64,000 nt of DNA, taken from positions 1-64,000 of the forward strand of contig JAJFZO010000332.1 in the NCBI GenBank assembly GCA_021397835.1. Reading direction: 5' to 3'. Of this stretch, positions 15,826-51,923 are shown piece by piece (the first letter of the stretch is position 1; the number at the start of each line of letters is the position of its first letter). Origin of the DNA: Moringa oleifera (Eukaryota > Streptophyta > Magnoliopsida > Brassicales > Moringaceae). The notes beneath the pieces were generated by a model. That model had not been told where the DNA came from and ran no database searches. It worked only from the letters and a program-made list of their open reading frames with translations. A program made the translations under genes and the position numbers.

Positions 15826-16006
15826 GCACGTTTTTAAAATAAGATTGGGCAGCTATTTAAATGCTCAGGCCTTCGGCACCTTCTTCCTCCTCTGCTGCTC
15901 TCTCTCCCCCCTCTCTCTCTCTCAAAATCCCCTCATATTCCTTGAGAAAGCAGATCGATAGAAAACATTCACGTTTCAAGAAGAAACAAGGAAACAAGGG
16001 AAGATC
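15826..16006 (+). other. Single satellite-like leader unit upstream of zinc-finger fragment 2
   Basis: It reads TTTTTAAAATAAGATTGGGC, AGCTATTTAAATGC, CACCTTCTTCCTCCTCTGCT, a long CT run, CCTTGAGAAAGCAG and CAAGAAGAAACAAGGAAACA. This is one well-preserved ~165-bp unit, joined to GGGAAGATCTCAAG, which also starts each 509-bp unit. It may represent the ancestral single-copy form from which both arrays grew. Confidence 0.75.
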
Positions 16007-18821: not shown

Positions 18822-18888
18822 GTACTGTACGCTTGTTATCTTATTGAGACGTTTAATGTTAATGAATATCATTATGTACTAGATATAG

Positions 18889-19467
18889 ATGGAGCACCTA
18901 GTTGCGGAGTGGATTGCCGAAGTAAACCTTCCAGCTGCTCAAGTTGCAATCAGGATGGGTGTTCCTTTTTGGCAAATTTTGGGTACAATAGTGAAGTTCA
19001 TTAAACTTTTTTCCTTAGTCATTTAATGTAGTATATGCTTATATTTAATCAGAAATAACATTAACTACTACTAACCCCTTTTGATTTTGACAAGAGAAAT
19101 AGCTCTAGGTCGAAAGGTCATTGTGTAGTTGTTCATGTGACAAATGAAGATACACATGATGGTTTTAAACCTACCAGTGGGAAAGTACAGGTAAATTGTT
19201 AGGTTTCTTGAGCAGTCACCGTTGACGCATTTTATTCCTCATTTTTACGAACTAGAGTTGAGCTGCATAATTCTATGACTTTTAAAAGAGTTGAATTTCA
19301 AAAGCAATCCAAATGTGTGGGCTTGCCTTTTTGTAAAGATAATTTATTTTATTTTTTTTCTTTTCAAAACTATATATTGATAGCATGGTCCATTTTCTAC
19401 ATAAGTGATTAAATTTCTTACTTGCAGTTTAGAGGAGGCATTCATGAATTCTGAGATTCTCAATTTG
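18889..19467 (+). pseudogene. ACC1 unit 0: exons C-F, the best-preserved copy
   Basis: Exon C (18889-18982) reads MEHLVAEWIAEVNLPAAQVA, then GVPFWQIL. This retains the active-site Glu of VEHPVTEW, which most other units have lost. Exon D (about 19065-19190) reads TPFDFDK, SKGHCVVVHVTNED and HDGFKPTSGKVQ without a stop. Exon E (about 19288-19338) is full length: ELNFKSNPNVWACLFVK. Exon F (19428-19467) reads GGIHEF, a TGA stop, then DSQFG. The intron after exon E starts ATAATT instead of GTAAGT, a donor defect also seen (as ATAAGT) in later units. Exons A and B are replaced by 14-3-3 sequence. This is the array edge and the least altered reference for the other units. Confidence 0.93.
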
Positions 19468-19519
19468 GTAAGTAGAAGTTATTAATCTCATTTGAGTATG
19501 TTAAAATTTTGAGTATCAA

Positions 19520-19990
19520 TTTTGGTATAATTATAGCAGCTTAAATGAAGTAGTTGTAACAGTAGCAGTTTAAAGGAGAAGCAGTAGCAATATAACACTA
19601 ACAGTTTGGATAGAAGAATAGTTAAGATGGATTACCAGTAGCACTTTAGCTTGATTAGTAGTGGTAGTAGCAATTTTGATGAGTAGCAGTAGTAGTAGCA
19701 GCTTTCATGAGTAGTAATTGCAGTTTAGATAGAAAAGCACAAGCTGTAGCAGTTTTGATGAGTAGTAGTAGGAGTTTAAACAGGTAGCTGTAATAGTATA
19801 ACAATAGTAGTTCGGATTGATAAGTAGTTACAGTATAGCTGTAGTAACTTAAACGAAGTGGCACTAGCAGCAACAGTTTAGAAAAGTAGCACTGGCATAT
19901 AGTAGTGGTAGTCTGGATAAAGTAACAGTCCTAGTACAGTAATGTAGCAGTAGAAGTTTGGTTGGTGTGGCACTAGGAGTAGACATTTTG
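19520..19990 (+). repeat. Intronic AGTAGCAGT minisatellite, first of 16 blocks
   Basis: After exon F of each unit, a 450-700 bp stretch is built from degenerate units of about 20-25 bp containing GTAGCAG or GTAGTAG and a spacer such as TTTTGATGA or TTTAGATG. Further blocks follow exon F in every unit (for example about 21410-22080, 37720 excluded, 38275-38945, 42480-43150 and 49480-50165), always before the next exon A. The complementary strand reads as long Leu/Tyr/Ser open frames (LLLLYSYSYPFKLLLLLIKT type), which are artefacts of CTG/CTA/TAC triplets. Confidence 0.9.
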
Positions 19991-20096
19991 ATGGAGGATA
20001 AGTTTAGATTTATATCATATTTTCTAATTGAAATTGAAATTTAGTGGTTCAGTTACTTTGTGATCATCATAAATATGTTGCAGCTTTTCGTTGTAG

Positions 20097-21312
20097 GGAT
20101 TGTAATATTCAGAGGAGATACCATAAGGTTCATTCTTTTTATTGTCATTACATTTAGATTTGGTTATTATGTATAATGTTTTTCTTATTTTGCTATTTTT
20201 TTATTGAATTCAAATTATATCCTATCTTTCCAACCATAAGAGGGGAAGAATAACATTTATCCTTTTGGAGAATATTTTTATGAGATCTTTACTTTTTAAT
20301 GTGTATGGTACAGATTATTAAAGAGGTTCAAATTACATTGACTCCTTTGAAAATTATCAAGGAACTTCAACAAGCAACTGAAAGGTTCGCTAAATGGTTA
20401 AGATGCAACTGTTGAGTATCTTGAAAGCATGGATACCAATAAATACTATTTTTCAGTATCCAATCTTGTATCGCAGGTATACTTTACTGGCTATTCTCTC
20501 AAGTATAGTTCATAAATTTTATTTGCGTGTATTCATTCATGTCGATATCTTTGTAGATCATATTTCTAACTTAGGATACGGATAATTAGGTTGACAAGTC
20601 TTGACCTCGTTTTGTTGTGGTTTTGGCACAAGTCGTTTTGTATTTGAAATGGCTTGCCAACTACCTTATGAAGATGTTTAGTGTTAATGAATGTCAGCAA
20701 GTATTGCATACAGATGGAGCACCCAATTACGAAATGGATTGTTGATGTAAAATGTTCTGCTGCGTAAGTTGCATCCGGGGTCGATGTTCCTCTCTCGCAA
20801 ATTCTTTGTACGACAGTATAGTTCGTTAAATTGCTCTTCGTAGTTATTTAACGCGGTATCTCTATGCCTATATTCAATAAGAAATAAGGCAATTTTCTGG
20901 CATGAAAATTCTTAGCTACCACTAACCCCTTTTAATTTAGAAAAAGCAGAGAGTACGAGGCCAAAAGGTTATTCTTTAGCTATTCACTAGACAGGAGAAG
21001 ACCGGATGATGATTTGAAACCAACTGATGGGAAACTACAGGTAAATTGTCACCTTTCTTGAGCAATGATAGTTGATGCACTTTAATGCCCATTTTTATGA
21101 ACTAGAGTTGGGCTGCATAATTCTTTGACTTTTCAGGAGAGCTGAACCAAATAAGTGGGCTTACTTTTGTGTAAAGATAAGTAATTTTGTTTTTTTTTTT
21201 GTTTTTTTCAAAACTATATGTTTGATAGCATGGTTCATTTTCTAACTAAATGATTGAATTTCTTACTTGCAGTCGAGGGGAGGCAATCATGAAATCTGGG
21301 ATTCTCAATTTG
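20097..21312 (+). pseudogene. ACC1 unit 1
   Basis: Exon A 20097-20127 reads RDCNIQRRYHK. Exon B (20314-20476) is 163 nt, 11 nt shorter than an intact 174-nt exon, with the loss near AKW; the rest reads EYLESMDTNKYYFSVSN, so the Tyr pair of EYYF survives. Exon C (20714-20807) keeps the Glu (MEHPIT) but has TKW for TEW and a TAA stop where Gln is expected. Exon D (ending 21040) has the TAG shared by all later units, and exon E has the shared 13-nt deletion. It is intermediate between unit 0 and the bulk of the array. Confidence 0.92.
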
Positions 21313-22192
21313 GTAAGTAGAAGCTACTAATCTCATTTGAGTACATTAATATTTTCTAGGAAATAACATACTGTTTATTTAAAAGGAATAATGAACACGA
21401 TAATAGTAAAAGTAGCACTATAATATTACCAATAGTAGTATAGCATTGTAGCAGTTGCAGTGTAATAGTAATTCAGAGTGAGGAGGAGTAGTAGTATAGC
21501 AGTAGCAGTTTAGATGCATTAGTAATGGGAGTAGCAGTTTTGATGAGTAGCAGTAAGATTGGCAATTAAAATCGAGCAACCGTTGCAGTAAAGCTAAGCT
21601 CGAATTGATTAGCAATTTCGGTGTAGGTGTAAAAGCTTAAATGGAGTAGTTGTAACACCAGAAGTTTAAAAGAAAAGTAATAAAAGTATAACAGTAGCAA
21701 TTCGGAGAGAGTAGTAGCTGTGATGGATTAGTAGTAGCAGTTTAACTTTATTAGCAATAGTAATAGCAGTTTGGATGAGTAGCAGTAGTAGTAGAAGCTT
21801 TCATGAGTAGCAACTCAAGTTTAGATAGAAAGGCACAAGCAGTAGCAGTTTTGATTAGTAATAAAAGGAGTTTAAATGGGTAGCTGTAGCTGTACAACAA
21901 TAGTAGTTTGGATTGAGAAGTAATTGCAGTATAGCTGTAGTAGCTTAAACGAAGTGGCACTAGCAGCAGTAGTTTAGAAGAGTAGCACTAGCATATAGCA
22001 GCAGTAGCTTAGATAGAGTAGCAATGGCAGTGCAGTAGTATAGTGGTAGAAGTTTGGTTTGAGTAGGACTAGTAGCAGAGGTTTTGATGGAGGAGAAGTT
22101 TAGATATGTATCGTAATTTCTAACTAGAGTTGAAATATAGTGATTCAGCTACTTTATGATCATTATAAAAATGTTGCAGCTTTTCATTGCAC

Positions 22193-23419
22193 GGATTGTA
22201 ATATTGAGAGGAGGCACCAGAAGGTTCATTCTTTTTGTTATCACTGAATTTTGATTTGGTTATTACGTATAATATTTTTCTTGTTTTGCTATTTTTTTAT
22301 TGAATTCAAGTTGTATCCTAACTTCCCAACCATAAGAGGGGAAGAATAGCATTTGTCCTTTCAGAGAATATTTTTATTAGATCTTTACTTTTTAATGTGT
22401 GTGGTACAGATTGTTAATGAGGGTCAAATTACATTAGTCTCTTTGAAAACTATCAAGGAACTTCAGCAAGCAACTAAAAGGTTCACTAAATGGTTAATTA
22501 CTTTTGAGCTGCAACTGTTGAGTATATTGAAAGCATGGACACTAATAAATGCCATTTTTTAATACCCAATCTTGTATCGCAGGTATACTTTGCTGGCTGT
22601 TCCCGCAAGTATACTGCATAATTTTTATTTGGATGTATTCATTCATGTCAATATCTTCATAGATGATATTTCTGACTTGGGATGCGAAAAATCAGGTTGA
22701 TAAGTTTTGTCCTCGTTTTTGTTGTGGTTTTGGCATAAGGCGTTTTGTTTTTGAAATGGCTTGCCAGCTACCTTATTAAGATGTTTAGTGTTAATGAATG
22801 TAAGCATGTATTGCATACAGGTGAAGCACCCAATTACGGAGTGGATTGTTGATGTAAAACTTTATGCTACACATGTTGCATTCGGGGCCGATGTTCATCT
22901 CTCGATAATTACTGGTACGATAGTATATTTCATTAAATTTTTGTTCGTAGTTATTTAACGCAGTATGTCAAATCAATGCTGATATTTAATAAGAAATAAG
23001 GCTATTTTCAGGCATGAAAATCTTCAGCTACCGTTAACCCTTTTTAATTTGGAAAAAGCAGAGAGTACGAGGCCAAAAGGTTATTCTTTAGCTATTCACT
23101 AGACAGGAGAAGACCGGATGATGATTTGAAACCAACGGATGGGAAACTACAGGTAAATTGTCACCTTTCTTGAGCAATGATCGTTGATGTATTTTATTGC
23201 CCATTTTTATGAACTAGAGTTGGGCTGCATAATTCTTTGACTTTCAGGAGAGCTGAACCAAATATGTGGGCTTACTTCTGTGTAAAGATAAGTTATTTTA
23301 TTATTTGGTTTTTTTCAAAACTATATGTTTGATAGCATGGTTCATTTTCTAACTAAATGATTGAATTTCTTACTTGTAGTTGAGGGGAGAAAATCATGAA
23401 ATCTGGGATTCTCAATTTG
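22193..23419 (+). pseudogene. ACC1 unit 2
   Basis: The acceptor before exon A is GCAC instead of GCAG. Exon B (22410-22582, 173 nt) has the 1-nt loss shared by units 2-15 just before GCAACTGTTGAG. Exon C (22821-22914) is open and reads VKHPITEWIVDVKLYATHVA: the Glu is now Lys. Exon D ends at 23152, and exon E is about 23248-23287 with a 13-nt deletion. Exon F (23380-23419) follows a TAG acceptor. Confidence 0.92.
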
Positions 23420-24302
23420 GTAAGTAAAAGCTAGTAATCCCATTTGAGTACATTAATATTTTTTAGGTAATAACATACTGTTTATTTAAAAAGAATAGTG
23501 AACACGATAATAGTAAAAGTAGCACTATAACAATACCAATAGCAGTATAGCATTATAGCAGTTGCAGTGTAATAGTAATTCAGAGAGAGGAGCAGTAGTA
23601 GTATAGCAGAAGCAGTTTAGATGCATTAGTAGTGGGAGTAGCAGTTTTGATGAGTAGTAGTAAGACTGGTAATTAAAATCGAGCAGCCGTTGCAATAGAG
23701 CAGTAGGAGCTCGAATTGATTAGCAATTTCGGTGTAGGTGTAAAAGCTTAAATGGAGTAGTTGTACACCATAAGTTTAAAAGAAAAGTAATAAAAGTATA
23801 ACAATAGCAATTCGGATAGAGTAGCAGTTGTGATGGATTAGCAGTAGCAGTTTAACTTGATTAGCAACGGCAATAGCAGTTTGGATGAGTAGTAGTAGTA
23901 GTAGAAGCTTTCAGGAGTAGCAATTCAAGTTTAGATAGAAAAGCACAAGCAGTAGCAGTTTTGATTAGTAATAAAAGGAGTTTAAATAGGTAGCTGTAGC
24001 TGTACAACAATAGTAGTTCGGATTGAGAAGTAATTGCAGTATAGCTGTAGTAGCATAAACGAAGTGGCACTAGCAACAGCAGTTTAGAGGAGTAGCACTA
24101 GCATATAGCAGCAGTAGCTTAGATAGAGTAGCAATGGCAGTGCAGTAGTATAGCGATAGAAGTTTGGTTATAGTAGGACTAGCAGCAGAGGTTTTGACGA
24201 TGGAGAAGTTTAGATATGTATCATAATTTCTAACTGGATGTGAAATATAGTGATTCAGCTACTATGCGATCATTATGAAAATGTTACAGCTTTTCATTGC
24301 AG

Positions 24303-25525
24303 GGATTGTAATATTGAGACGAGGCACCAGAAGGTTCATTCTTTTTGTTGTCACTGAATTTTGATTTGGTTATTACGTATAATATTTTTCTTGTTTTGCT
24401 ATTTTTTTTCATTGAATTCAAGTTATATCCTACCTTCCCAACCATAAGAGGAGAAGAATAGCATTTATCCTTTCAGATAATGTTTTTATTAGATCTTTAT
24501 TTTTAATGTGTGTGGTACAAATTATTAAGGAGGTTCAAATTACATCAGCCCCTTTGAAAACTATCAAGGAACTTCAGTAAGCAACTAAAAGGTTCACTCA
24601 ATGGTTAATTACTTTTGAGCTGCAACTGTTGAGTATCTTAAAAGCTGGGCACTAATAAATGTAATTTTTAATACCCAATCTTTTATCGTAGGTATACTTT
24701 GCTGGCTGTTCCCTCAGGTATACTTCATCATTTTTATTTGCATGTATTCATTCATGTCAATATCTTTATAGATGATATTTTTGATTTGGGATGCAAAAAA
24801 TCAGGATGATAAGTTTTGACCTCGTTTTTGTTGTGGTTTTGGCATAAGGTGTTTTGTATTTGAAATGGCTTGCCAGCTACCTTATTAAGATGTTTAGTGT
24901 TAATGAATGTCAGCAAGTATTGCGTACAGGTGAGGTACCCAATTATGGAGTGGATTGTTGATGTAAAACTTTATGCTGCAGATGTTGCATTCGGGGCCGA
25001 TGTTCCTCTCTCGCAAATTACTGGTATGATAGTATATTTCATTAAATTGTTTTCCGTAGTTATTTAACGCAGTATGTCAAATCTATGCCTACATTTAATA
25101 AGAAATAAGTCTATTTTCTGGCATGACAATCCTCAGCTACCGCTAACCCCTTTTAATTTGGAAAAAGCAGATAGTACTAGGCCAAAAAGTTATTCTTTAG
25201 CTATTCACTAGATAAGAGAAGACCGGATGATGATTTGAAACCAATTGATGGGAAACTACAGGTAAATTGTCACCTTTCTTGAGTAATGATAGTTGATGCA
25301 CTTTATTGCCCATTTTTATGAACTAGAGTTGGGCTGCATAATTCTTTGACTTTCAGGAGAGCTGAACCAAATATGTGGGCTTACTTCTGTGTAAAGATAA
25401 GTTATTTTGTTTTTTCTTTTTCAAAACTATACGTTTGATAGCATGGTTCATTTTCTAACTAAATGATTGAATTTCTTACTTGCAATCCAGGGGAGGCAAT
25501 CATGAAATCTGGGATTCTCAATTTG
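24303..25525 (+). pseudogene. ACC1 unit 3 (first unit of duplicated triplet)
   Basis: Exon C (24930-25023) reads VRYPIMEWIVDVKLYAADVA, with Glu to Arg and His to Tyr. Exon B has an extra TAA stop where the second Gln of ELQQ should be, and a further 1-nt loss (AAAGCTGGGCAC). Exon D has TAGATAAGAGAAGAC around the shared stop. The exon F acceptor is TGCAATCC, having lost its AG. Unit 6 matches it almost throughout at an offset of 6311 bp. Confidence 0.92.
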
Positions 25526-26409
25526 GTAAGTAGAAGCTACTAATCTCATTTGAGTACATTAATATTTTTTAGGTAATAACATACTGTTTATTTAAAAAGA
25601 ATAATGAACACGATAATAGTAAAAGTAGCACTATAACAATACCAATAGCAGTATAGCATTGTAGCAGTTGCAGTGTAATAGTAATTCAGAGAGAGGAGCA
25701 GTAGTAGTATAGCAGAAGCAGTTTAGATGCATTAGTAGTGGGAGTAGCAGTTTTGATGAGCAGCAGTAAGACTGGCAATTAAAATCGAGCAGTCGTTGCA
25801 ATAGAGCAGTAGGAGCTCGAATTGATTAGCAATTTCGGTGTAGGTGTAAAAGCTTAAATGGAGTAGTTGTAACACCATAAGTTTAAAAGAAAAGTAATAA
25901 AAGTATAACAATAGCAATTCGGAGAGAGTAGTAGCTATGATGGATTAGCAGTAGCAGTTTAACTTGATTAGCAACGGCAATAGCAGTTTGGATGAGTAGC
26001 AGTAGTAGTAGAATCTTTAATGAGTAGCAATTCAAGTTTACATAGAAAAGCACAAGCAGTAGCAGTTTTGATTAGTGATAAAAGGAGTTTAAATGGGTAG
26101 CTGTAGCTGTACAACAATAGTAGTTCGGATTGAGAAGTAATTGCAGTATAGTTGTAGTAGCATAAACGAAGTGGCACTAGCAGCAGCAGTTTAGAGGAGT
26201 AGCACTAGCATATAGCAGCAATAGCTTAGATAGAGTAGCAATGGTAGTGCAGTAGTATAGCGGTAGAAGTTTGGTTATAGTAGGACTAGCAGCAGAGGTT
26301 TTGACGGAGGAGAAGTTTAGATATGTATCCTATTTTCTAACTGGATTTGAAATATAGTGATTCAGCTACTGTGTGATCATTATGAAAATGTTGCAGCTTT
26401 TCATTGCAG

Positions 26410-27640
26410 GGATTGTAATATTGAGACGAGGCACCAGAAGGTTCATTCTTTTTGTTGTCACTGAATTTTGATTTGGTTATTACGTATAATATTTTTCTTG
26501 TTTTGCTATTTTTTTTCATTGAATTCAAGTTATATCCTACCTTCCCAACCATAAGAGGAGAAGAATAGCATTTATCCTTTCAGATAATGTTTTTATTAGA
26601 TCTTTACTTTTTAATGTGTGTGGTACATATTATTAAGGAGGTTCAAATTACATTGGCCCCTTTGAAAACTATCAAAGAACTTCAACAAGCAACTAAAAGG
26701 TTCACTAAATGGTTAATTACTTTTGAGCTGTAACTATTGAGTATCTTGAAAGCATGGACACCAATAAATGCCATTTTTAATACCCAATCTTTTATCGTAG
26801 GTATACTTTGCTGGCTGTTCCCTCAGGTATACTTCATCATTTTTATTTGCATGTATTCATTCATGCCAATATCTTTATAGATGATATTTTTGACTTGGGA
26901 TGCGAATAATCAGGTTGATAAGTTTTGACCTCGTTTTTGTTGTGGTTTTGGTATAAGGCGTTTTGTATTTGAAATGGCTTGCCAGCTACCTTATTAAGAT
27001 GTTTAGTGTTAATGAATGTCAGCAAGTATTGCATACAGGTAAAGCACCCAATTACGGAGTGGATTGTTGATGTAAAACTTTATGCTGCAGATGTTGCATT
27101 CGGGGTCGATGTTCCTCTCTCGCAAATTACTGGTAGGATAGTATATTTCATTAAATTGTTCTCCGTAGTTATTTAACGCAATATGTCAAATCTATGCCTA
27201 CATTTAATAAGAAATAAGTCTATTTTCTGGCATGACAATCCTCAGCTACCGCTAACCCCTTTTAATTTGGAAAAAGCAGATAGTACTAGGCCAAAAAGTT
27301 ATTCTTTAGCTATTCACTAGATAAGAGAAGACCGGATGATGATTTGAAGCCAACTGATGGGAAACTACAGGTAAATTGTCACCTTTCTTGAGCAATGATA
27401 GTTGATGCACTTTATTGCCCTTTTTATGAACTAGAGTTGGGCTGCATAATTCTTTGACTTTTAGGAGAGCTGAACCAAATATGTGGGCTTACCTCTGTGT
27501 AAAGATAAGTTATTTTGTTATTTTGTTTTTTTTTTTCAAAACTATACGTTTGATAGCATGGTTCATTTTCGAACTAAATGATTGAATTTCTTACTTGCAA
27601 TCCAAGGGAGGCAGTCATGAAATCTGGGATTCTCAATTTG
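26410..27640 (+). pseudogene. ACC1 unit 4 (second unit of duplicated triplet)
   Basis: Exon C (27039-27132) reads VKHPITEWIVDVKLYAADVA, then FGVDVPLSQIT. The Gln-type codon after GAGCTG in exon B is TAA. The exon F acceptor is TGCAATCC (AG lost). Exon E reads TGTGGGCTTACCTC in place of TACTTC. Unit 7 is its near-identical partner. Confidence 0.92.
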
Positions 27641-28524
27641 GTAAGTAGAATCTACTAATCTCATTTGAGTACATTAATATTTTTTAGGTAATAACACACT
27701 ATTTATTTAAAAAAAATAGTGAACACGATAATAGTAAAAGTAGCACTATAACAATGCCGATAGCAGTATAGCGTTGTAGCAGTTGTAGTGTAATAGTAAT
27801 TCAAAGAAAAGAACAGTAGTAGTATAGCAGTAGCAGTTTAGATGCATTAGTAGTGGGAGTAGTAGTTTTGATGAGTATCAGTAAGACTGGCAGTTAAAAT
27901 CGAGCAGCCATTGCAATAGAGCAGTAGGAGCTCGAATTGATTAGCAATTTCGGTGTAGGTGTAAAAGCTTAAATGGAGTTGTTGTAACACCATAAGTATA
28001 AAAGAAAAGTAATAAAAGTATAACAGTAGCAATTCGGAGAGAGTAGTAGCTGTGATGGATTAGCAGTAGCAGTTTAACTTGATTAGCAACGGCAATAGCA
28101 GTTTGGATGAGTAGCAGTAGTAGTAGAAGCTTTCATGAGTAGCAATTCAAGTTTAGATAGAAAGGCACAAGCAGTAGTAGTTTTGATTAGTAATAAAAGG
28201 AGTTTAAATGGGTAGCTGTAGCTGTACAACAATAGTAGTTCGGATTGAGAAGTAATTGCAGTATAGCTGTAGTAGCTTAAACGAAGTGGCACTAGCAGCA
28301 GCAGTTTACAGGAGTAGCACTAGCATATAGCAGGAGTAGGTTAGATAGAGTAGCAATGGCAGTGCAGTAGTATAGCGGTAGAAGTTTGGTTATAGTAGGA
28401 CTAGCAGCAGAGGTTTTGACGGGGGAGAAGTTTAGATATGTATCGTATTTTCTAACTGGAGTTGAAATATAGTGATTCAACTACTTTGCAATCATTATGA
28501 AAATGTTGCAGCTTTTCATTGCTG

Positions 28525-29753
28525 GGATTGTAATATTGAGACGAGGCACCAGAAGGTTCATTCTTTTTGTTGTCACTGAATTTTGATTTGGTTATTACGT
28601 ATAATATTTTTCTTGTTTTGTTATTTTTTTTCATTGAATTCAAGTTATATCCTACCTTCCCAACCATAAGAGGAGAAGAATAGCGTTTGTCTTTTCAGAG
28701 AATGTTTTTATTAGATCTTTACTTTTTAAGTGTGTTGTACAGATTGTTAAGGAGGTTCAAATTACATTTGCTCCTTTGAAAACGATCAAGGAACTTCAGC
28801 AAGCAACTAAAAGGTTCCCTAAATGGTTAATTACTTTTGAGCTGCAACTGTTGAGTATCTTGAAAGCATGGGCACTAATAAATGTCATTTTTAATACCCA
28901 ATCTTTATCGTAGGTATACTTTGCTGGCTGATCCCTTAGGTATACTTCATAATTTTTATTTGCATGTATTCATTCATGTCAATATCTTTATAGATGATAT
29001 TTTTGATTTGGGATGCGAAAAATCAGGATGATAAGTTTTGACCTCGATTTTGTTGTGGTTTTGGCATAAGGTGTTTTGTATTTGAAATGGCTTGGCAGCT
29101 ACCTTATTAAGATGTTTAGTGTTAATGAATGTCAGCAAGTATTGCATACAAGTGAAGCACCCAATGACGGAGTGGATTGTTGATGTAAAACTTTATGCTG
29201 CAGATGTTGTATTCGGGGCCGATGTTCCTCTCTCGCAAATTACTGGTAGGATAGTATATTTCATTAAATTGTTCTCCGTAGTTATTTAACGCAGTATGTC
29301 AAATCTATGCCTACATTTAATAAGAAATAAGTCTATTTTCTGGCATGACAATCCTCAGCTACCACTAACCCTTTTTAATTTGGAAAAAGCAGAGAGTACG
29401 AGGCCAAAAAGTTATTCTTTAGCTATTCACTAGATAAGAGAAGACCGGATGATGATTTGAAACCAACTGATGGGAAACTACAGGTAAATTGCCACCTTTC
29501 TTGAGCAATGATAGTTGATGCACTTTATTGCCCATTTTTATGAACTAGAGTTGGGCAGCATAATTCTTTGACTTTCAGGAGAGCTGAACCAAATATGTGG
29601 GCTTACTTCTGTGTAAAGATAAGTTATTTTGTTTTTTTGTTTTTTTTTTCAAAATTATACGTTTGATAGCATGGTTCATTTTCCAACTAAATGATTGAAT
29701 TTCCTACCTGCAGTCCAGAGGAGGCAATCATGAAATCTGGGATTCTCAATTTG
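28525..29753 (+). pseudogene. ACC1 unit 5 (third unit of duplicated triplet)
   Basis: The acceptor before exon A is GCTG instead of GCAG. Exon C (29152-29245) reads VKHPMTEWIVDVKLYAADVV; its acceptor is shifted because ACAG|G became ACAA|G. Exon F keeps a good CTGCAG acceptor. The minisatellite tail (about 30395-30540) has two small deletions not present in unit 8, so the duplicated block must end near 30400. Confidence 0.92.
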
Positions 29754-40286: not shown

Positions 40287-41167
40287 GTAAGTAGAAGCTA
40301 CTAATCTCATTTGAGTACATTAATACTTTTTAGGTAATAGCATACTGTTTATTTAAAAGAAATAGTGACCACGATAATAGTAAAAGTAGCACTATAACAA
40401 TACCAATAGCAGTATAGCATTGTAGTAGTTGCAGTGTAATTGTAATTCAGAGAGAGGAGCAGTAGTAGTATAGCAGTAGCTGTTTAGACGCAATGTAGTG
40501 GGAGTAGCAGTTTTGAAAAGTGGCAGTAAGACTGGCAATTTAAATCGAGCAACCGTTGCAGTAGAGCAGTAGGATCTCGAATTGATTAGCAATTTCTGTA
40601 GGTGCAAAAGCTTAAATGGAGTAGTTGTAACACCTGAAGTTTAAAAGAAAAAGTAATAAAAGCATAACCGTAGCAATTCGGAGAGAGTAGTAGCTGTGAT
40701 GGATTAGCAGTAGTAGGTTAACTGGATTAGCAACGATAATAACAGTTTGGATGAGTAGTAGTAGTAGCAGAAGTTTTCATGAGTAGCAATTCAAGGTTAG
40801 ATAGAGAAGCACAAGCAGCAGCAGTTTTTATTAGTAATAAAAGGAGTTTAAACAGGTAGCTGTAACTGTATAACAATAGCAATTCGGATTGAGAAGTAAT
40901 TGCAGTATAGCTGTAGTAGCTTAAACGAAGTGGCACTAGCAGCAGCAGTTTAGAGGAGTGGCACTAGCATATAGTAGTTGTAGCTTGGATAGTGTAGCAA
41001 TGGCAGTGCAGTAGCATAGCGGTAGAAGTTTAGTTGGAATAGGACTAGAAGCAGAGGTTTAACGGAGGAGAATTTTAGATATATATCGTACTTTCTAACT
41101 AGAGTTGAAATATAATGATTCAGCTACTTTGTGATCATTATGAAAATGTTGCAGCTTTTCATTGCAG

Positions 41168-42394
41168 GGATGATAATATTGAGAGGAGGCACCAGAAGGT
41201 TCATTCTTTTTGTTGTCACTGAATTTTGATTTGGTTATTACGTGTAATATTTTTCTTGTTTTGCTATTTTTTTTATTGAATTCAACTTATATGCTTCCTT
41301 CCCAACCATAAGAGGCGAAGAATAGCATTTATCCTTTCAGAGACTGTTTTTTTTAGATCTTTGCTTTTTAATGTGTGTGGTACAGATTATTAAGGAGGGT
41401 CAAATTACATTAGCCCCTTTGAAAACTATCAAGGAACTTCAGCAAGCAACTAAAATGTTCGCTAAATGGTTAATTACTTTTGAGCTGCAACTGTTGAGTA
41501 TCTTGAAAGCATTTACACTAATAAATGCCATTTTTAATACCCAATCTTGTATCGCAGGTATACTTGCTGGGTGTTCCCTCGTGTATACTTCATAATTTTT
41601 ATTTGCATGTATTCATTCTTGTCAATATCTTTATAGATGATATTTTTGACTTGAGATGCGAAAAATCAAATTGATAGGTTTTGACCTCGTTTTTGTTGTG
41701 GTTTTAGCATAAGGCGTTTTGTATTTGAAATGGCTTACCAGTTACCTTATTAAGATGTTTTGTGTTAATGAATGTCAGCAAGTATTGCATACAGGTGAAC
41801 AACCCAATTACGGAGTGGATTGTTGATGTAAAACTTGATGCAGCATACGTTGCATTCGGGGCCGATGTTCCTCTCTCGCAAATTACTGGTACGATAGTAT
41901 ATTTCATTACATTGTTCTCCGTAGTTATTTAACGTAGTATCTCAAATCTATGCCCATATTTGATAAGAAATAAGGCTATTTTCTGGCATGAAAATCCTCA
42001 GCTACCGCTAACCCCTTTTAATTTGGAAAAAGCAAAGAGTACGAGGCCAAAAGGTTATTCTTTAGCTATTCACTAGACAGGAGAAGACCGAATGATGATT
42101 TGAAGCCCACTGATGGGAAATTACAAGTAAATTGTCACCTTTCTTGAGCAATCATAGTTGATGTAGTTTATTGCCCATTTTTATGAACTAGAGTTGGGCT
42201 GCATAATTCTTTGACTTTCAGGAGTGCTGAACCAAATATGTGGGCTTACTTCTCTATAAAGATAAGTTATTTTGTTATTTTGTTTTTTTTCAAAACTATA
42301 TGTTTGACAGCATGGTTCCTTTTCAAACTAAATGATTGAATTTTTTACTTGCAGTCCAAGGGAGGCAATAATGAAATCTTGGATTCTCAATTTG
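41168..42394 (+). pseudogene. ACC1 unit 11
   Basis: Exon C (41795-41888) reads VNNPITEWIVDVKLDAAYVA, so both Glu and His of VEH are Asn. Exon D has AAGACCGAATGATG, the 1-nt loss shared by units 1-11, and ends in TTACAA|GTAAAT with the final G of the exon changed. Exon A reads GGATGATAAT. Confidence 0.92.
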
Positions 42395-43272
42395 GTAAGT
42401 AGAAGCTACTAATCTCATTTAAGTACATTAATATTTTTTAGGTAATAACATAATGTTTATTTAAAAGGAATAGTGAACACGATAATAGTGAAAGTAGCCT
42501 TATAACAATAACAATAGCAGTATAGCATTGTTGCAGTGTAATAGTAATTCAGAGAGAGGAGCAGTAGTAGTATAGCAGTAGCAGTTTAGATGCATTAGTA
42601 ATGGGAGTAGTAGTTTTGATGAGTTGCAGTAAGACTGGCAATTTAAATCGAGCAGCTATTGCAGTAGAGCAGTAGGAGCTCGAATAGATTAGCAATTTTG
42701 GTTAAGGTGTAAAAGCTTAAATGGAGTAGTTGTAACACCAGAAGTTTAGAAGAAAAGTAATAAAAGTATAATTGTAGCAATTCAGAGAGAGTAGTAGCTA
42801 TGATGGATTAGCAGTAGCAGTTTAACTTGATTAGGAACGGTAATAGCTGTTTGGATGAGTAGCAGTAGTAGTAAAAGCTTTCATGAGTAGCAATTCAAGT
42901 TTAGATAGAAAAGCACAAGCAGTAGTAGTTTTGATAAGTAAGAGAAGGAGTTTAAACGGGCAGCTGTAGCTGTATAATAATAGCAGTTTGGATTGAGAAG
43001 TAATTGTAGTATAGCTATAGTAGCTTAAACGAAGAGGCACTAGCAGCAGCAGTTTAGATGAGCAGCACTAGCATATAGTAGTGGTAGCTTTGATAGAGTA
43101 GTAATGGCAGTGCAGTAGTATAGCGGTAGAAGTTTGGTTGGAGTAGGACTAGCAGCAAAGGTTTTAACGAAGGAGAAGTTTAGCTATGCATCGTATTTTC
43201 TAACTAGAGTTGAAATGTAGTGGTTTAGCTACTTTGTGATCAGTATGAAATTGTTGCAGCTTTTCATTGCAG

Positions 43273-44490
43273 GGATTATAATATTGAGAGGGGGCATTAG
43301 AAGGTTCATTCTTTTTTGTTGTCACTGGATTTAGATTTGGTTATTACGTGTAATATTTTTCTTATTTTGCTATTTTTTTATTGAATTCAAGTTATATCCT
43401 ACCTTCCCAACCATAAGAGGGGAAGAATAGCATTTATCCTTTTGTATGATATCTTTACTTTTTAATGTGTATGGTACAGATTATTAAGGAGGGTCAAATT
43501 ATATTAGCTCCTTTGAAAACTATCAACGAACTTCAGCAAGCAACTAAAAGGTTCGTTAAATGGTTAATTATTTTTGAGCTACAACTGTTGAGTATCTTGA
43601 AAGCATAGACACCAATAAATGCTATTTTTTAATACCCAATCTTGTGTCGCAGGTATACCTTGCTGGCTGTTCCCTCAGGTATACTTCATAATTTTTATTT
43701 GCATGTATTCATTCATGTCGATATCTTTATAGATGACATTTCCAACTTAGGATGCGGATAATCATGTTGATAGGTTTTAACCTCATTTTTGTTGTGCTTT
43801 TGGCATAAGGCGTTTTGTACTTGAAATGGCTTGCCAGCTACCTTATTAAGATGCTTAGTGTTAATGAATGTCAGTAAGTATTGCATGCAGGTGAAGCACC
43901 CAATTACGGAGTGGATTGTTAATGTAAAACTTAATGCTGCACAAGCTACATTCGGGGCCGGTGTTCCTCTCTCACAAATTATTGCTACGATAGTATATTT
44001 CATTAAATTGTTCTCCGTAGTTATTTGACGCAGTATCTCAAATCTATGCCTATATTTAATAAGAAATAAGGCTATTTCTGGCATGAAAATCCTCAGCTAC
44101 CGCTAACCCCTTATAATTTAGAAAAAGCAAAGAGTACGAGGCCAAAAGGTTATTCTTTAGCTCTTCACTAGACAGGAGAAGACCCAGATGATGATTTGAA
44201 ATCCACTGATGGGAAACTATAGGTAAATTGTCGCCTTTCTTGAGCAATCATAATTGATGTATTTTATTGCCCATTTTTATGAACTAGAGTTGAGCTGCAT
44301 AATTCTTTGACTTTCAGGAAAGCTGAACCAAATTTGCTGGCTTACTTCTCTGTAAAGATAAGTTATTTTGTTATTTTGTTTTTTTTCAAAACCATATGTT
44401 TGATAGCATGGTTTGTTTTCTAACTAAATGATTGAATTTCTTACTTGCAGTCCAAGGGAGGCAATCATGAAATCTGGGATTCTCAATTTT
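43273..44490 (+). pseudogene. ACC1 unit 12
   Basis: Exon D reads GAAGACCCAGATGATGATTT, which keeps the EDPDD reading frame of the parent enzyme. Units 1-11 have lost one base here. The shared TAG still precedes it, and the exon now ends in TAG|GTAAAT. Exon C (43891-43984) reads VKHPITEWIVNVKLNAAQAT; its donor has become CTACGA in place of GTACGA. Unit 13 is its close copy. Confidence 0.92.
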
Positions 44491-45375
44491 GTAAGTAGAA
44501 GCTACTAATCTCATTCGAGTACGTTAATATTTTTTAGGTAATAACATACTGTTTATTTAAAAGGAATAGTGAATACGATAATAGTAAAAGTAACACTATA
44601 ACAATACCAATAACAGTATTGCATTGTAGCAGTTGTAGTGTAATAGTAATTCAGCGAGAGAAGCAGTAGTAGTATAGCAGTAGCAGTTTATATGCATTAG
44701 TAGTGGGAGTAGCAGTTTTGATGAGAAGCAGTAAGACTGGCAATTTAAATCGAGCACTCATTCCAGTAGAGCAGTAGGAGCTCGAATTGATTAGCGATTT
44801 CGGTATTGGTGTAGCAGCTTAAATGGAGTAGTTGTAACACTAGAAGTTTAAAAGAAAAACTAATAAGAGTGTAACAGTAGCAATTCGGAGATAGTAGTAG
44901 CTATGATGGATTAGCAGTAGCAGTTTAACTTTATTAGCAACGGTAATAGCAGTTTTGATGAGTGGCCGTAGTAGTATAAGCTTTCATGAGTAGCAATTCA
45001 AGTTTAGATAGAAAAGTACAAGCAGTAGCAGTTTTGATGAGTAATAGAAGGAGTTTGAACGGGCAGCTGTAGCTGTATAACAATAGCAGTTCGGATTGAG
45101 AAGTAATTACAGTATAGCTGTAGTAGCATAAACGAAGTGGCACTAGCAACAGCAATTTAGAGGAGTAGTACTGGCATATAGCAGTGGTAGCTTGGATAGA
45201 GTAGCAGTAGTAGTGCAGTAGTATAGCGGTAGAAGTTTGGTTGGAGTAGGACTAGCATCAAAGGTTTTAACGAAGGAGAAGTTTAGCTATGCATCGTATT
45301 TTCTAACTAGAGTTGAAATGTAGTGGTTTAGCTACTTTGTGATCATTATGAAAATGTTGTAGCTTTTAATTGAAA

Positions 45376-46591
45376 GGATTGTAATATTGAGAGGGGGCAC
45401 TAGAAGGTTCATTCTTTTTTGTTGTCACTGGATTTAGATTTGGTTATTACGTGTAATATTTTTCTTATTTTGCTATTTTTTTATTGAATTCAAGTTATAT
45501 CCTACCTTCCCAACCATAAGAAGGGAAGAATAGCATTTATCCTTTTGTATGATATCTTTACTTTTTAATGTGTATGGTACAGATTATTAAGGAGGGTCAA
45601 ATTATATTGGCTCCTTTGAAAACTATCAACGAACTTCAGCAAGCAACTAAAAGGTTCGCTAAATGGTTAATTATTTTTGAGCTACAACTGTTGAGTATCT
45701 TGAAAGCATAGACACCAATAAATGCTATTTTTTAATACCCAATCTTGTGTCGCAGGTATACCTTGCTGGCTGTTCCCTCAAGTATACTTCATAATTTTTA
45801 TTTGCATGTATTCATTCATGTCGATATCTTTATAGATGACATTTCCAACTTTGGATGCGGATAATCAAGTTGATAGGTTTTAACCTCGTTTTTGTTGTGC
45901 TTTTGGCATAAGGAGTTTTGTATTTAAACTGGCTTGCCAGCTACCTTATTAAGATGCTTAGTGTTAATGAATGTCAGTAAGTATTGCATGCAGGTGAAGC
46001 ACCCAATTACGGAGTGGATTGTTAATGTAAAACTTAATGCTGCATAAGCTACATTCGGGGCCGGTGTTCCTCTCTCACAAATTATTGCTACGATAGTATA
46101 TTTCATTAAATTGTTCTCCGTAGTTATTTGACGCAGTATCTCAAATCTATGCCTATATTTAATAAGAAATAAGGCTATTTCTGGCATGAAAATCCTTAGC
46201 TACCGCTAACCCCTTATAATTTAGAAAAAGCAAAGAGTACGAGGCGAAAAGGTTATTCTTTAGCTTTTCACTAGACAGGAGAAGACCCAGATGATGATTT
46301 GAAACCCATTGATGGGAAACTATAGGTAAATTGTCGCCTTTCTTGAGCAATCATAATTGATGTATTTTATTGCCCATTTTTATGAACTAGAGTTGGGCTG
46401 CATAATTCTTTGACTTTCAGGAAAGCTGAACCAAATTTGCTGGCTTACTTCTCTGTAAAGATAAGTTATTTTGTTATTTTGTTTTTTTTCAAAACTATGT
46501 TTGATAGCATGGTTCATTTTCTAACTAAATGATTGAATTTGTTACTTGCAGTCTAAGGGAGGCAATCATGAAATCTGGGATTCTCATTTTG
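45376..46591 (+). pseudogene. ACC1 unit 13 (copy of unit 12)
   Basis: It shares the in-frame EDPDD and the CTACGA donor with unit 12. Additional lesions are the acceptor before exon A (GAAAGG, AG lost from its place), a CAA to TAA stop in exon C (45994-46087) and TCTCATTTTGG at the end of exon F. The extra lesions suggest unit 12 is closer to their common source. Confidence 0.92.
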
Positions 46592-47474
46592 GTAAGTAGA
46601 AGCTACTAATCTCATTCGAGTACGTTAATATTTTTTAGGTAATAACATACTGTTTATTTAAAAGGAATAGTGAACACGATAATAGTAAAAGTAGCACTAT
46701 AACAATACCAATAGCAGTATAGCATTGTAGTAGTTGCAGTGTAATAGTAATTCAGAGAGAGGAGCAGTAGTAGTATAGCAGTAGCAGTTTAGATGCATTA
46801 GTAGTGGGAGTAGCAGTTTTGATGAGTAGCAGTAAGACTGGCAATTTAAATCTAGCAGTCGTTGTAATAGAGCAGTTGAAGCTCGAATTGATTTGCAATT
46901 TCAGTACTGGTGTAGCAGCTTAAATGGAGTAGTTGTAAGACCAGAAGTTTCAAAGAAAAGTAATAAGAGTATAACAGTAGCAATTCGGAGAGAGTAGTTG
47001 CTAAGATGGATTAGCAGTAGCAGTTTAACTTGATTAGCAGCGGTAATAGCAGTTTTAATGAGTAGCCGTAGTAGTATAAGCTTTCATGAGTAGCAATTCA
47101 AGTTTAGATAGAAAAGCACAAGCAGTAGCAGTTTTGATGAGTAATAGAAGGAGTTTAAACGGGTAGCTGTAGCTGTATAACAATAGCAGTTCGGATTGAG
47201 AAGGAATTGCAGTATAGTTGTAGTAGCTTAAACAAAGTGGCACTAGCAATAGTAGTTTAGAGGAATAGCACTGCCATATAGCCGTGGTAGCTTGGATTGT
47301 GCAGCAATAGTAGTGCAGTAGTATAGCGATAGAAGTTGGTTGGAGTTGGGCTAGTAGCAGAGGTTTTGACGGAGGAGAAGTTTAGATATGTATCATATTT
47401 TCTAACTAGAGTTGAAATGTAGTGGTTCAGCTACTTTGTGATCATTATGAAAATGTTGCAGCTTTTTATTACAA

Positions 47475-47780
47475 AGATTGTAATATCGAGAGGAGGCACC
47501 AAAAGGTTCATTCTTTTTGTTGACACTGAATTTAGATTTGGTTATTACGTATAATATTTTTCTTATTTTGCTATTTTTTTATTGAATTCAAGTTATATCC
47601 TACCTTCCCAACCATAAAAGGGGAAGAATAGCATTTATCGTTTTGTATGAAATCTTTACTTTTTAATGTGTATGGTACAGATTATTAAAGAGGGTCAAAT
47701 TATATTGGCTCCTTTGAAAACTATCAAGGAACTTCGGCAAGCAACTTAAAGGTTTGCTAAATGGTTAATTATTTTTGAGC
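47475..47780 (+). pseudogene. ACC1 unit 14, truncated by internal deletion
   Basis: Exon A (47475-47505) and the first 90 bases of exon B (from 47691) are present. At about 47780 the sequence passes directly from TTTTTGAGCT of exon B to TTTCATGAGTAG, which belongs to the middle of the minisatellite intron. About 1.4 kb of a normal unit is missing, including exons C-F. AGCT is present at both parent sites, so a 4-bp microhomology could have guided the deletion. Exon B also has CAACTTAAAGG (TAA) for CAACTAAAAGG. Confidence 0.92.
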
Positions 47781-48174
47781 TTTCATGAGTAGTAATTCTA
47801 GTTTAGGTAGAAAGGCACAAGCCGTAACAGTTTTGATGAGTAATAGAAGGAGTTTAAACGGGTAGCTGTAGCTATATAACAATAACAGTTCGGATTGAGA
47901 AGTAATTGCTGTATAGCTATAGTGGCTTAAACGAAGTGGCACTAGCAGCAGCAGTTTAGAGGAGTAGCACTGGCATATAGCAGTGGTAGCTTGGATAGAG
48001 TAGTAGTAGCAGTGCTGTAGTATAGCGGTAGAAGTTTGGTTGGAGTAGGACTAGCAGCAGAAGTTTTGACGGAGGAGAAGTTTAGATGTGTATCGTATTT
48101 TCTAACTAGACTTGAAATGTATTGGTTCAGTTACTTTGTGATCATTATGAAAATGTTGAAGGTTCAAATTGCAG

Positions 48175-49383
48175 GGATTGTAATATCGAGAGGAGGCACC
48201 TGAAGGTTCATTCTTTTTGTTGTCATTAAATTTAGATTTGGTTATTACGTACAATATTTTTCTTATTTTATTATTTTTTTATTGAATTCAAGTTATATCC
48301 AACAATAAGAGTGGAAGAATAGCATTTATCTTTTTGGAGAATGTTTTTTTTAGATCTTTACTTTTTAATGTGTATAGTACAGATTATTATGGAGGGTCAA
48401 ATTACATGGGCTCCTTTGAAAACTATTAAGGAACTTCAGCAAGCAACTAAAAGGTTCACCAAATGGTTAATTATTTTTGAGCTGTAACTGTTGAGTATCT
48501 TGAAAGTATAAACACCGATAAATGGTATTTTCCAGTACCTAATCTTGTATCGCAGGTATACTTCGCTGGCTGTTCCCTCAGGTATACTTCATAATTTTTA
48601 TTTGTGTTTATTCACTCATGTCGATATCTTTATAGATGATATTTCTAACTTGGGATGCTGACAATTAGGTTGATAAGTTTTGACGTCGTTTTTGTTGTGG
48701 TTTTGGCACAAGTCATTTTGTATTTGAAATGGCTTGCCAGCTACCTTATTAGGATGTTTAGTGTCAATGACTATCAGCAGGTATAGCACCTTATTACAGA
48801 ATGGATTGTTGATGTAAAATTTTCTGCTGTGCAAGTTGCATACGGGGTCGATGTTCCTCTCTCTTAAATTACTGGTACGATAGTATAGTTCGTTAAATTG
48901 TTCTCCGTAGTTATTTAATGCAGTATCTCATAATCTATGCTTATATTTAATAAGAAATAACGTTTTTTTTTGGGATGAAAATCCTTAGCTACTGCTAATC
49001 CCTTTTAATTTTGAAAATGCAGATAGCACGAGGCAAAAAGGTTATTCTTTAGCTGTTCACTAGACTGGAAAAGACCTGGATGATGGTTTGAAACTCACTG
49101 ATGAGAAACTACAGGTAAATTGTTAGCTTTCTTGACCAATCATGGTTGGTGCATTTTATTGCACATTTTTATGAACTAGAGTTTAGCTGCATAATTCTTT
49201 GACTTTTAGGAGAGTTGAACTAAATATGTGTGCTTACTTCTATGTAAACATATGTTATTTTGTTTTTTCCTTTTTTTTTCAAAACTATGTGTTTGATTGC
49301 ATGGTTCATTTTCTAACTAAACGATTGAATTTCTTACTTGTAGTCCAGGGGAGGCAATCGTGAAATCTGGGATTCTCAAATTG
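48175..49383 (+). pseudogene. ACC1 unit 15, last of the array
   Basis: The 13 bases before exon C of a normal unit are missing, so CAGCAG joins directly to exon C (48781-48874), which starts with GTATAGCAC (a TAG stop) and has TAA near its end. Exon D reads GACCTGGATGATGGTTT, keeping the frame and the Gly of PDDG that the other amplified units lost. Being divergent and partly better preserved fits an array edge. Its minisatellite tail ends at about 50165-50187, where a different repeat begins. Confidence 0.92.
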
Positions 49384-50187
49384 GTAAGTAGAAGCTACTA
49401 ATCTCATTTGGGTATGTTAATATTTTTTAGGTAATAACCTTCTCTCTATTTAAAAAGAATACTGAACATGATAATAGTAAAAGTAGCACTATAACAACAC
49501 CGATAGCATTATAACATTGTAGCGTTTGCAGTGCAATAGCAATTAAGAGAAAGCAACAGTAGTAGTATAGTAGTAGCAGTTTTGATGCACTAATAGTGCA
49601 AGTAGCAGTTTTGATTAGTAGCAGTAAGACTAGCAATTTAAATCGAGCAGTTGTTGCCGTATAGCAGTAAGAGCACGAATTGATTAGCAATTTCGATATA
49701 GGTGTAGCAGGTTAAATGGAGTAGTTATAACACTAGCAGTTTAAAAGAAAAGCAATAAGAGTATAGCAGTAGTAGTTTGGAGAGAGTAGCAGTTATGATG
49801 GATTACAGCAACAGTTTAGCTTGATTAGCAATGGTGTAGCAGTTTTGATGAGTAGCAGTAGTAGTACCAGCTTTCATGAGTAGCAATTCTAGTTTAGATA
49901 GAAAAGTACGAGCAATAGCAGTTTTGATGAGTAATAAAATGGGTTTAAATGGGTAGCTGTAGCTGTATAGCAATAGCAGTTCGGATTGAGAAGTAATTGC
50001 AGTATAGCTGCAGTAGATTAAACGGAGTGGCACTAACAGCAGCAGCTTAGAGGAGTAGCACTGACATATACCAGTGGTAGCCTGGATAGAGTAGCAGTAG
50101 CCGTGCAGTAGTATAACAGTAGAAGTTTGGTTTGAGTAGGACTAGCAGTAAAAGTTTGGATTGATTAGCAATTGCGTTTGGAAGCCA

Positions 50188-51880: not shown

Positions 51881-51923
<43 letters not shown>

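Follow-up and report, generated by a model that had tools for sequence, protein, structure and literature searches.

The mammalian macrosatellites D4Z4 and RS447 are gene-bearing, with an open reading frame in the repeated unit. In primate pericentromeric regions, fragments of the ALD and KGF genes form mosaic duplicons that occur on several chromosomes and have short degenerate repeats at their junctions; core duplicons, too, are known from primates. The Stellate/Su(Ste) system of Drosophila comprises expressed Stellate units that are silenced by small RNAs. Plant satellites have been traced to retrotransposons or rDNA spacers (PMC7004042; PMC3648361). Many satellites bear no trace of their origin. 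Here we describe a satellite whose source gene sits in the same genome. We analyzed a window of 64,000 nucleotides (the whole stretch studied), positions 1 to 64,000 of contig JAJFZO010000332.1 in the Moringa oleifera assembly GCA_021397835.1. It holds an array of a dead piece of the homomeric acetyl-CoA carboxylase gene (ACC1), itself part of a larger repeat (Table 1).

An array of dead ACC1 fragments

A preliminary description had proposed 14 complete and two partial copies of six ACC1 exons with their introns, all in one direction at a period of about 2.1 kb. It had suggested a tblastn search and a self dot-plot. We ran the first with a piece of the ACC1 biotin carboxylase, the second as a DNA self-comparison, and obtained the same count of six-exon sets. 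The exon series recurs from 18,889 to 49,114, always on the forward strand, and the self-comparison gave a single family of diagonals, spaced at 2.1 kb and multiples of it between 19.5 and 47.8 kb, which an offset of 2,799 extends to 50.15 kb. In set 13, exon 1 was missed by tblastn and the DNA just downstream of it is present (match at 45437). The DSQFG exon ends at 19469, 21314, 23421, 25527, 27642, 29755, 31838, 33952, 36067, 38178, 40288, 42396, 44492, 46593, and 49385. Twelve of the 14 spacings between these ends are 2,083-2,115 bp, in agreement with the proposed period; the first is 1,845 bp, and the last is 2,792 bp because exons 1-2 occur one extra time at 47.46-47.76 kb. The limits given previously, 18,826 and 50,187, had to be refined: similarity to ACC1 begins at 18,847, and the array runs to a point between 50,161 and 50,177. 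Chance repetition is excluded by the matches of a 30-mer of the unit: 15 in the window, allowing up to three mismatches (0 in 100 shuffles), and 370 in the assembly (0 for the reversed pattern). The locus has the long array of head-to-tail units that typifies satellite DNA (14 and one partial in the window).

The copies come from the biotin-carboxylase part of ACC1, and this homomeric acetyl-CoA carboxylase gene lies, its exons open, on contig C3 of the same genome. This identity is independent of the tblastn query, since the translation of the six joined C3 exons was itself compared with named protein chains. Among the best 60 of 76 matches, the 12 best were all acetyl-CoA carboxylases (1w93, 5csk, 6g2i, and others, presumably the yeast and human enzymes), aligned from residue 2 or 3 to residue 198 of 198 with E-values of 3.7e-70 to 4.2e-65. 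The next-best chains, other biotin-dependent carboxylases, aligned to around residue 104 only, at 1.6e-29 or weaker. Hence, the source was correctly named, and a better alignment with something other than ACC1, listed beforehand as a refutation, did not occur. The six exons were seen by tblastn, and introns are kept in all 14 units, at 74.2-75.9% identity to those of the gene. Their retention, with the gene present elsewhere in the genome, indicates that the copies arose from DNA and not RNA, and rules out a processed (retro-)pseudogene.

The unit holds more than the ACC1 fragment, which makes up only ~1.35 kb of the 2.1 kb. The fragment is fused to ~0.75 kb (about one third of the unit) of a degenerate GTAGCAG minisatellite, which at the density threshold used was found nowhere in the window outside the array and which, as a minisatellite, was not found in the 20 kb around the C3 gene. 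No Rfam family at gathering score and no tRNA was found in the window.

The units were rightly called dead. Each of the 14 has 2-6 stops, and their exons (72.9-76.6% identity to the gene) are no more similar to it than their introns. Among units 2-14, exons and introns differ to the same extent (0.0933 vs 0.0927), and variable sites are spread evenly over codon positions 1, 2, and 3 (55/184, 65/187, and 59/184). The stops and this equal divergence led us to reject a coding or selected array, i.e., a protein-coding tandem gene cluster. The partial copy beside the 14-3-3 fragment is less decayed than the 2.1-kb units (exons at 85% to the gene, with a stop in exon 6 read by eye); its counterparts at all seven other places compared have exons at 84.4-85.0% and at least one stop. 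Four of the 18 dispersed copies outside C523 have no stop within the exons covered. Some dispersed copies may have stayed coding for longer, since their pN/pS (0.11/0.37 at C473) is lower than that of the array units (about 0.24/0.30).

Repetition at nested scales

The identity between units drops with their distance, except at a step of three units. Units 2-13 share 89.6-99.7% identity, and units 7 and 8 repeat units 4 and 5 (99.3% for 4/7 and 99.7% for 5/8). Near units are therefore more alike and higher-order repeats are present, as in a homogenised satellite. The duplication inside unit 14 pairs 47,079-47,781 with 47,778-48,483 at 87%. After the last partial unit, the array terminates against a retrotransposon-bearing region, where a copia-type gag fragment (53,985-54,449) matches below the Pfam cut-off.

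The array had been described as a single one of 31 kb. The array stands, but it is not alone: it sits in a 62-kb macro-repeat, and the matches of the unit 30-mer are assembly-wide. Window positions 2-1844 return at 62149-64000 with 97.4% identity in the self-comparison, and the second macro-repeat unit continues past position 64,000 until the contig stops at 68,683 (C107:64001-68683 equals window 1845-6407 at 93.7%). Ankyrin markers are 22-78 kb apart on C555, C607, C603, C113, C125, and C100, with one gap of 136 kb on C100. With a unit of tens of kb, this is a macrosatellite, or tandem segmental duplication. Of the 34 genome matches of the 14-3-3 fragment, 23 are on array contigs (22 besides the one in the window), and 24 of the 115 matches of the ankyrin fragment are full-length, at 91-100%, on array contigs. 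The first 10.1 kb of the window spacer are also found on C100, at 97.4%, immediately between two ACC1 arrays. We rejected the reading that the 50.2-60.3-kb spacer was simply inserted into the C100 array, since the array phases of the two sides do not fit.

Table 1. Features of the 64,000-nucleotide window.
Feature	Position	Strand	Remarks
One macro-repeat unit, period ~62,147 bp	1..62148	+	Second unit from 62,149
Second fragment of the same ankyrin-repeat gene, more decayed	7430..7618	-	Self-comparison and genome matches
Ankyrin-repeat gene fragment, open for 85 aa	16227..16481	-	One of 24 full-length matches
14-3-3 gene exon fragment	18513..18629	+	Matches Pfam 14-3-3 (E 1.7e-7), slightly below its curated cut-off
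Partial ACC1 copy (exon 3, part of 4, 5, 6)	18847..19469	+	Adjoins the 14-3-3 fragment
Array unit 1, shortened, 1,845 bp	19469..21313	+	84.8-87.0% to units 2-14
GTAGCAG minisatellite segment, example	19520..20000	+	Recurs along the array in the same orientation
Array units 2-13, each 2,083-2,115 bp	21314..46592	+	Minisatellite, then ACC1 exons 1-6 with introns
Higher-order repeat, three-unit (6.3-kb) step	25527..36066	+	Pairwise identities and tree
Array unit 14, 2,792 bp	46593..49384	+	Internal 0.7-kb duplication repeating exons 1-2
Last partial unit, minisatellite part only	49385..50176	+	81-85% to the others
Spacer after the array	50177..60629	+	A copia-type gag fragment amid internally duplicated segments

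Dispersed copies and a junction common to the families read

ACC1-like pieces match on 29 contigs besides that of the gene, the weakest of which may be other carboxylases, and C523 carries a separate ACC1 array with a unit of ~0.88 kb. The copies that reach the 5' side start at position 359-373 of the ACC1 piece used, beside GTAGCAG repeats. We read this junction in the families of the array, C523, C25/C563, C583, C473, C517, and C51, and a junction 32-mer has 189 matches in the genome (0 in the control). It is lacking in the pieces from C563 (1.007 Mb) and C572 (1.28 Mb) and in one of the two from C51. The 3' ends vary among families, from 867 to 1966 of the ACC1 piece. The shared minisatellite/ACC1 junction points to one putative fusion event in the families read.

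A maximum likelihood tree of 38 sequences (10 of 48 were dropped for covering fewer than 400 bases of the region) is star-like. Its backbone branches are mostly 0.01 or less, two being 0.02-0.03, and the family stems are 0.05-0.17. This suggests a burst of copying. In distance to the gene, the array units (0.30-0.34) exceed the dispersed copies (0.17-0.24), so faster change inside arrays is needed. Methylation-driven decay as the sole cause of this longer branch is not supported by the substitution classes. Relative to the gene, C-to-T rates are equal (0.200 in the array and 0.202 in dispersed copies), and the array excess is in A/T-to-G/C changes (0.107 vs 0.070) and transversions (0.107 vs 0.061). 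Relative to a consensus built column by column from the dispersed copies, which as a reference favours them, C-to-T is 0.187 in the array vs 0.130, and this excess is exceeded by those in A/T-to-G/C changes (0.083 vs 0.035) and transversions (0.092 vs 0.031).

Among the pairs listed, the C473, C572, and C51 loci have flank pieces in common, at differing positions relative to ACC1, and a ~0.4-kb piece upstream of the minisatellite is common to C25, C563, and C583. At the copies examined we found no element end, target-site duplication, or clean insertion site that would account for the spread between contigs.

Origin of the array and comparison with known systems

We think that a dead ACC1 gene-fragment duplicon probably became a satellite and a macrosatellite. 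Six exons of ACC1 with their introns, as a genomic piece from inside the gene, would have been fused at one intron point to the GTAGCAG minisatellite and copied in a burst to many chromosomal places, together with 14-3-3 and ankyrin gene fragments. At several of these the fusion would then have multiplied in tandem. The 2.1-kb unit of the window may have grown by unequal exchange or replication slippage between neighbours, and in a next phase by copying at the three-unit (6.3-kb) step. The entire surroundings would also have been repeated, with markers 22-78 kb apart, so that a genic satellite lies inside a macrosatellite. The array codes for nothing. We infer unequal exchange as the mechanism of tandem growth, and segmental duplication, not a transposon, as that of dispersal. 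More tentatively, the ACC1-minisatellite fusion might be a plant core duplicon, comparable to those of primates. Its minisatellite end would repeatedly seed duplication, yielding the dispersed copies, at least two independent satellites (~0.88 kb on C523 and 2.1 kb in the window), and a macrosatellite dragging gene fragments along. No description of such a plant core duplicon was met in a limited literature search.

Mosaics of fragments of several genes with their introns, at many dispersed places, might also be expected if a Helitron or Pack-type transposon had captured the ACC1, 14-3-3, and ankyrin pieces and carried the fusion as cargo, with rolling-circle or nested insertion making the tandem copies. 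The minisatellite adjoining the cargo, the star-like burst, and the flank pieces common to some families would fit this too, and elements related to Helitrons that carry satellite-like arrays are reported from oyster (PMC7492417). We nevertheless regard this as rather unlikely: the 3' ends differ between families, the common flank pieces have differing positions and no common outer boundary among the pairs listed, and a terminal motif, transposase, or target-site duplication is not in evidence at the copies examined. A structural role as a centromeric or pericentromeric satellite seems improbable. Satellite contigs are short or have the satellite toward the contig end (0.01-0.52 of 1.39 Mb on C100; 0.93-1.23 of 1.23 Mb on C125), and among the matches listed the dispersed ones cluster on large contigs (6.5-7.6 of 9.6 Mb on C25; 4.2-5.35 of 13.8 Mb on C563). 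However, no centromere marker was found, further pieces lie outside the clusters (C563 at 1.0 Mb; C517 from 0.2 to 2.0 Mb), and 2.1 kb would be far longer than is usual for a centromere monomer. Integrase matches (150 of 918 candidates) proved uninformative as a marker, without a clear peak at the clusters (0/5 there on C563 and 3/5 on C25).

By analogy with Su(Ste), which silences Stellate, the array might be a functional source of small RNAs silencing ACC1, which we consider very improbable. Inverted array junctions (C159 near 21.5 kb, with the same match spacing on C205) could give double-stranded RNA, and exact 21-mers are shared with the six-exon ACC1 mRNA piece by the 14-3-3-linked copy of the window (2), C100:1-70000 (21), L010 (25), L034 (28), L040 (26), and L013 (3). 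But copy L036 and the 2.1-kb array of the window have none; the longest exact match to the latter spans 17 nt, and with up to two mismatches allowed, it is matched by 42 of the 574 mRNA 21-mers. Silencing by small RNAs of the window array was thus rejected. An assembly artefact, the other refutation named in advance, is hardly credible. Tandem arrays are hard to assemble and some of the small contigs seem redundant (the C107 ankyrin fragment is matched at 100% by C603 and C604), but full units differ by up to ~15%, and the block recurs on C100 and C555, at 93.8-97.8% over units and flanks, with other array lengths. The arms of the C159 inversion are only 86.9% alike, which argues against a fold-back read error as the source of the inverted arrays.

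If the duplicon did become a satellite, its stages survive side by side, from the gene through dispersed fragments and a short array to the satellite with its higher-order units and the 62-kb macrosatellite. Since these, the source gene, and a fusion point common to the families read are all present, the steps by which a housekeeping gene would give rise to a satellite can be put in order and tested. ACC1 is a herbicide target, and its annotation and copy-number calls in Moringa oleifera can be misled by hundreds of dead copies. A limited literature search found no report of an ACC1-derived satellite, which is weak evidence of absence.

Like D4Z4 and RS447, the locus has kilobase tandem units with gene sequence, in large arrays of variable copy number. 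These keep an open reading frame, whereas the unit of the window is a dead, internal, intron-containing piece joined to a minisatellite and nested in a second repeat with markers 22-78 kb apart. The ALD and KGF duplicons are similar in that intron-containing gene fragments were copied as mosaics with a short degenerate repeat at the junctions; the present case is in a plant, has one junction in the families read, and has units amplified to satellite arrays. In an insect Y-chromosome case, a gene fragment likewise lies inside repetitive interchromosomal duplications, but here there are hundreds of tandem units on many plant contigs. Stellate and Su(Ste) are also tandem arrays from a piece of a known gene, the Stellate units being expressed and silenced by small RNAs. 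Finally, the plant satellites from retrotransposons or rDNA spacers share the tandem amplification of a pre-existing sequence (PMC7004042; PMC3648361), but the source here is a housekeeping gene, with its exons and introns.

The array and its source gene

With an ACC1 biotin-carboxylase piece as query, tblastn matched the successive exons in their proper order all along the array. Self-comparison of the window gave a family of diagonals that runs from 19.5 to 47.8 kb with offsets of 2.1 kb and multiples of it; an offset of 2,799 carries the family on to 50.15 kb. The last exon ends at 15 places, and 12 of the 14 spacings are 2,083-2,115 bp. Together these results bear out the copy counts of the preliminary description: all six exons are present in 14 sets, and two further sets are partial. 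Exon 1 of set 13 had no tblastn match; the DNA immediately after it is there.

The assembly holding the window (279.5 Mb, 669 contigs) also contains the source gene, on contig C3. Its six joined exons form an open reading frame with Pfam ATP-binding and biotin-carboxylase C-terminal domains. Among the 60 best of 76 matches, chains named acetyl-CoA carboxylase align from residue 2 or 3 to 198 of 198, and other biotin-dependent carboxylases only over the first hundred or so residues. The Arabidopsis sequence is 88-100% identical to the gene in the six exon matches not crossing an intron, a likeness which points to a plant origin.

Features of the window and of the source gene
Feature	Location	Strand	Remarks
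Diverged ~165-bp tandem unit	window 4,914-7,281		two rows of about 7 copies each, with 69-78% matches; distinct from the ACC1 array
Ankyrin-repeat gene fragment	window 7,430-7,618		more decayed
~505-bp unit	window 13,302-15,339		head-to-tail, 94-96% identity; region also on C555
Ankyrin-repeat gene fragment	window 16,227-16,481		
14-3-3 exon fragment	window 18,513-18,629		
Partial ACC1 set	window 18,847-19,469		
Partial ACC1 set	window 47,458-47,761		
Internal duplicated segments (80-90%)	window 50,177-60,629		flank a copia-type gag fragment (match below Pfam cut-off); first 10 kb lies between two ACC1 arrays on C100
70-bp unit	window 60,690-60,831		two copies, 100% matches
ACC1 source gene, part read	C3:6,662,653-6,665,566	minus	exon order as in the array

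Composition, decay and growth of the units

The unit consensus is 2,113 bp long: about 1.35 kb of it aligns to the gene, and a degenerate minisatellite of GTAGCAG type makes up the other 0.75 kb or so. In a density scan of the window and loci L021-L048, this minisatellite occurred only next to ACC1 pieces and on their strand, and it was not found in the 20 kb around the C3 gene. By eye, the gene's intron contains GTAGCAATAG directly upstream of the junction, a possible seed.

The units are dead: all 14 carry stops relative to the gene (2-6 each). Their identity to it is 72.9-76.6% in exons and 74.2-75.9% in introns. Pairs of units 2-14 differ on average by 0.0933 in their exons and by 0.0927 in their introns; 55/184, 65/187 and 59/184 sites vary at codon positions 1, 2 and 3. 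Several stops, identified by eye from tblastn, are common to many units, which suggests that the founder unit was probably dead before it multiplied. Outside the separate array on C523, 4 of 18 dispersed copies have no stop in the exons covered.

Tandem growth has been local. Units 3-8 are highly alike (95.2-99.7% identity) and the array ends are least alike, with 84.8-87.0% between unit 1 and units 2-14 and 80.7-85.0% for partial unit 15. Units 4 and 7 (99.3%) and 5 and 8 (99.7%) point to recent copying in a three-unit (6.3-kb) step. Unit 14 holds an extra 0.7-kb duplication. Larger blocks were copied as well. Positions 62,149-64,000 of the window repeat 2-1,844 at 97.4% identity, and the contig beyond it, 64,001-68,683 (contig end), matches 1,845-6,407 at 93.7%; these matches indicate that the window is a single unit of a 62-kb tandem repeat. 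Contig C100 carries, in opposite orientation, 19.4 kb of array at 93.8%, 10.1 kb of spacer at 97.4% and 6 kb of the 14-3-3 side at 97.8%, and 13,807-23,452 of the window is repeated on C555 at 96.6-97.4%. The ankyrin-fragment marker is spaced 22-78 kb on C555, C607, C603, C113, C125 and C100, except for one 136-kb gap on C100.

Copies across the genome and their dispersal

A unit 30-mer recovered 15/15 places in the window and, with up to 3 mismatches, 370 in the assembly, a few of these falling in the gene (L021) and in dispersed copies (L036, L040); the 30-mer read backwards gave none. At 2.1 kb each, these matches amount to about 0.8 Mb. A junction 32-mer, which detects only 4 of the window's units, had 189 assembly matches (100 listed; control 0). 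The ACC1 protein piece gave at least 147 matches on 30 contigs including the gene's own (138 of 891 candidates scored), the weakest of which could be other carboxylases. At C159:20,000-22,700 (L047) the array direction reverses, with arms 86.9% identical, and C205 has opposite-strand matches at the same spacing. The 85-aa ankyrin fragment is 100% identical between C603/C604 and the window's contig (C107); C603 and C604 may represent the window's locus a second time, as redundant contigs or as alleles.

The copies, introns included, are of DNA-level origin. In those reaching the 5' end, similarity to ACC1 starts next to the minisatellite, at positions 359-373 of the gene piece. This junction is common to the families read for it (the array; C523; C25 and C563; C583; C473; C517; C51), those on further contigs being known as matches only. 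Exceptions that lack it are C563:1.007 Mb, C572:1.28 Mb and one of the two C51 pieces. A maximum-likelihood tree of 38 copies over 555 columns, rooted on the gene, is star-like; 10 of 48 sequences, including the eight 14-3-3-linked ones, were dropped as too short there. Backbone branches are mostly at most 0.01 (two at 0.02-0.03, several with support below 80), and family stems are 0.05-0.17. The array units group in a single clade (support 100; stem 0.168), and C-to-T decay alone does not explain this longer branch. The seven C523 copies used also form one clade (support 100); the repeat step of that array ranges from about 0.76 to 0.89 kb and is usually close to 0.88. Four C563 copies (4.940, 5.039, 5.147 and 5.259 Mb) are separated by about 100-110 kb each; the first three share 91% identity over at least 2.2 kb, and the fourth is 76-77% identical to them.

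We propose that one fusion of ACC1 with the minisatellite would have been followed by a burst of copies, with tandem steps arising through unequal exchange or replication slippage. Dispersal could have proceeded by segmental duplication or by transposon capture. We prefer segmental duplication, because the 3' ends differ among families (867 to 1966 of the gene piece) and, in the pairs of loci compared, flank pieces shared by some families sit in differing positions. No clean insertion site was seen, however.

Accompanying gene fragments and known kinds of repeats

The 14-3-3 fragment has 34 genome matches: 23 on array contigs (the window's included), 10 elsewhere and one adjoining an ACC1 piece on C563. 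For the ankyrin fragment, array contigs carry 24 full-length matches (91-100%) out of 115 in all. Dense fragment series of the same ankyrin-repeat gene occupy C473 (376-492 kb) and C72 (28-43 kb), possibly a second genic satellite of this genome. Near 1.0 Mb on C563, a stretch of about 5.2 kb contains ankyrin, 14-3-3 and ACC1 fragments together; hence, the mosaic is also present outside the satellite. At C473:546,412-549,594 (L013), decayed exons next to an ACC1 piece resemble, by eye, an AAA-type ATPase gene.

Literature searches, including ones naming acetyl-CoA carboxylase, found no ACC1-derived satellite. Tandem repeats derived from genes are already known, as are macrosatellites and pericentromeric duplicons of gene fragments. 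Two papers deal with repeats of such kinds (PMC3049792, PMC7004042).
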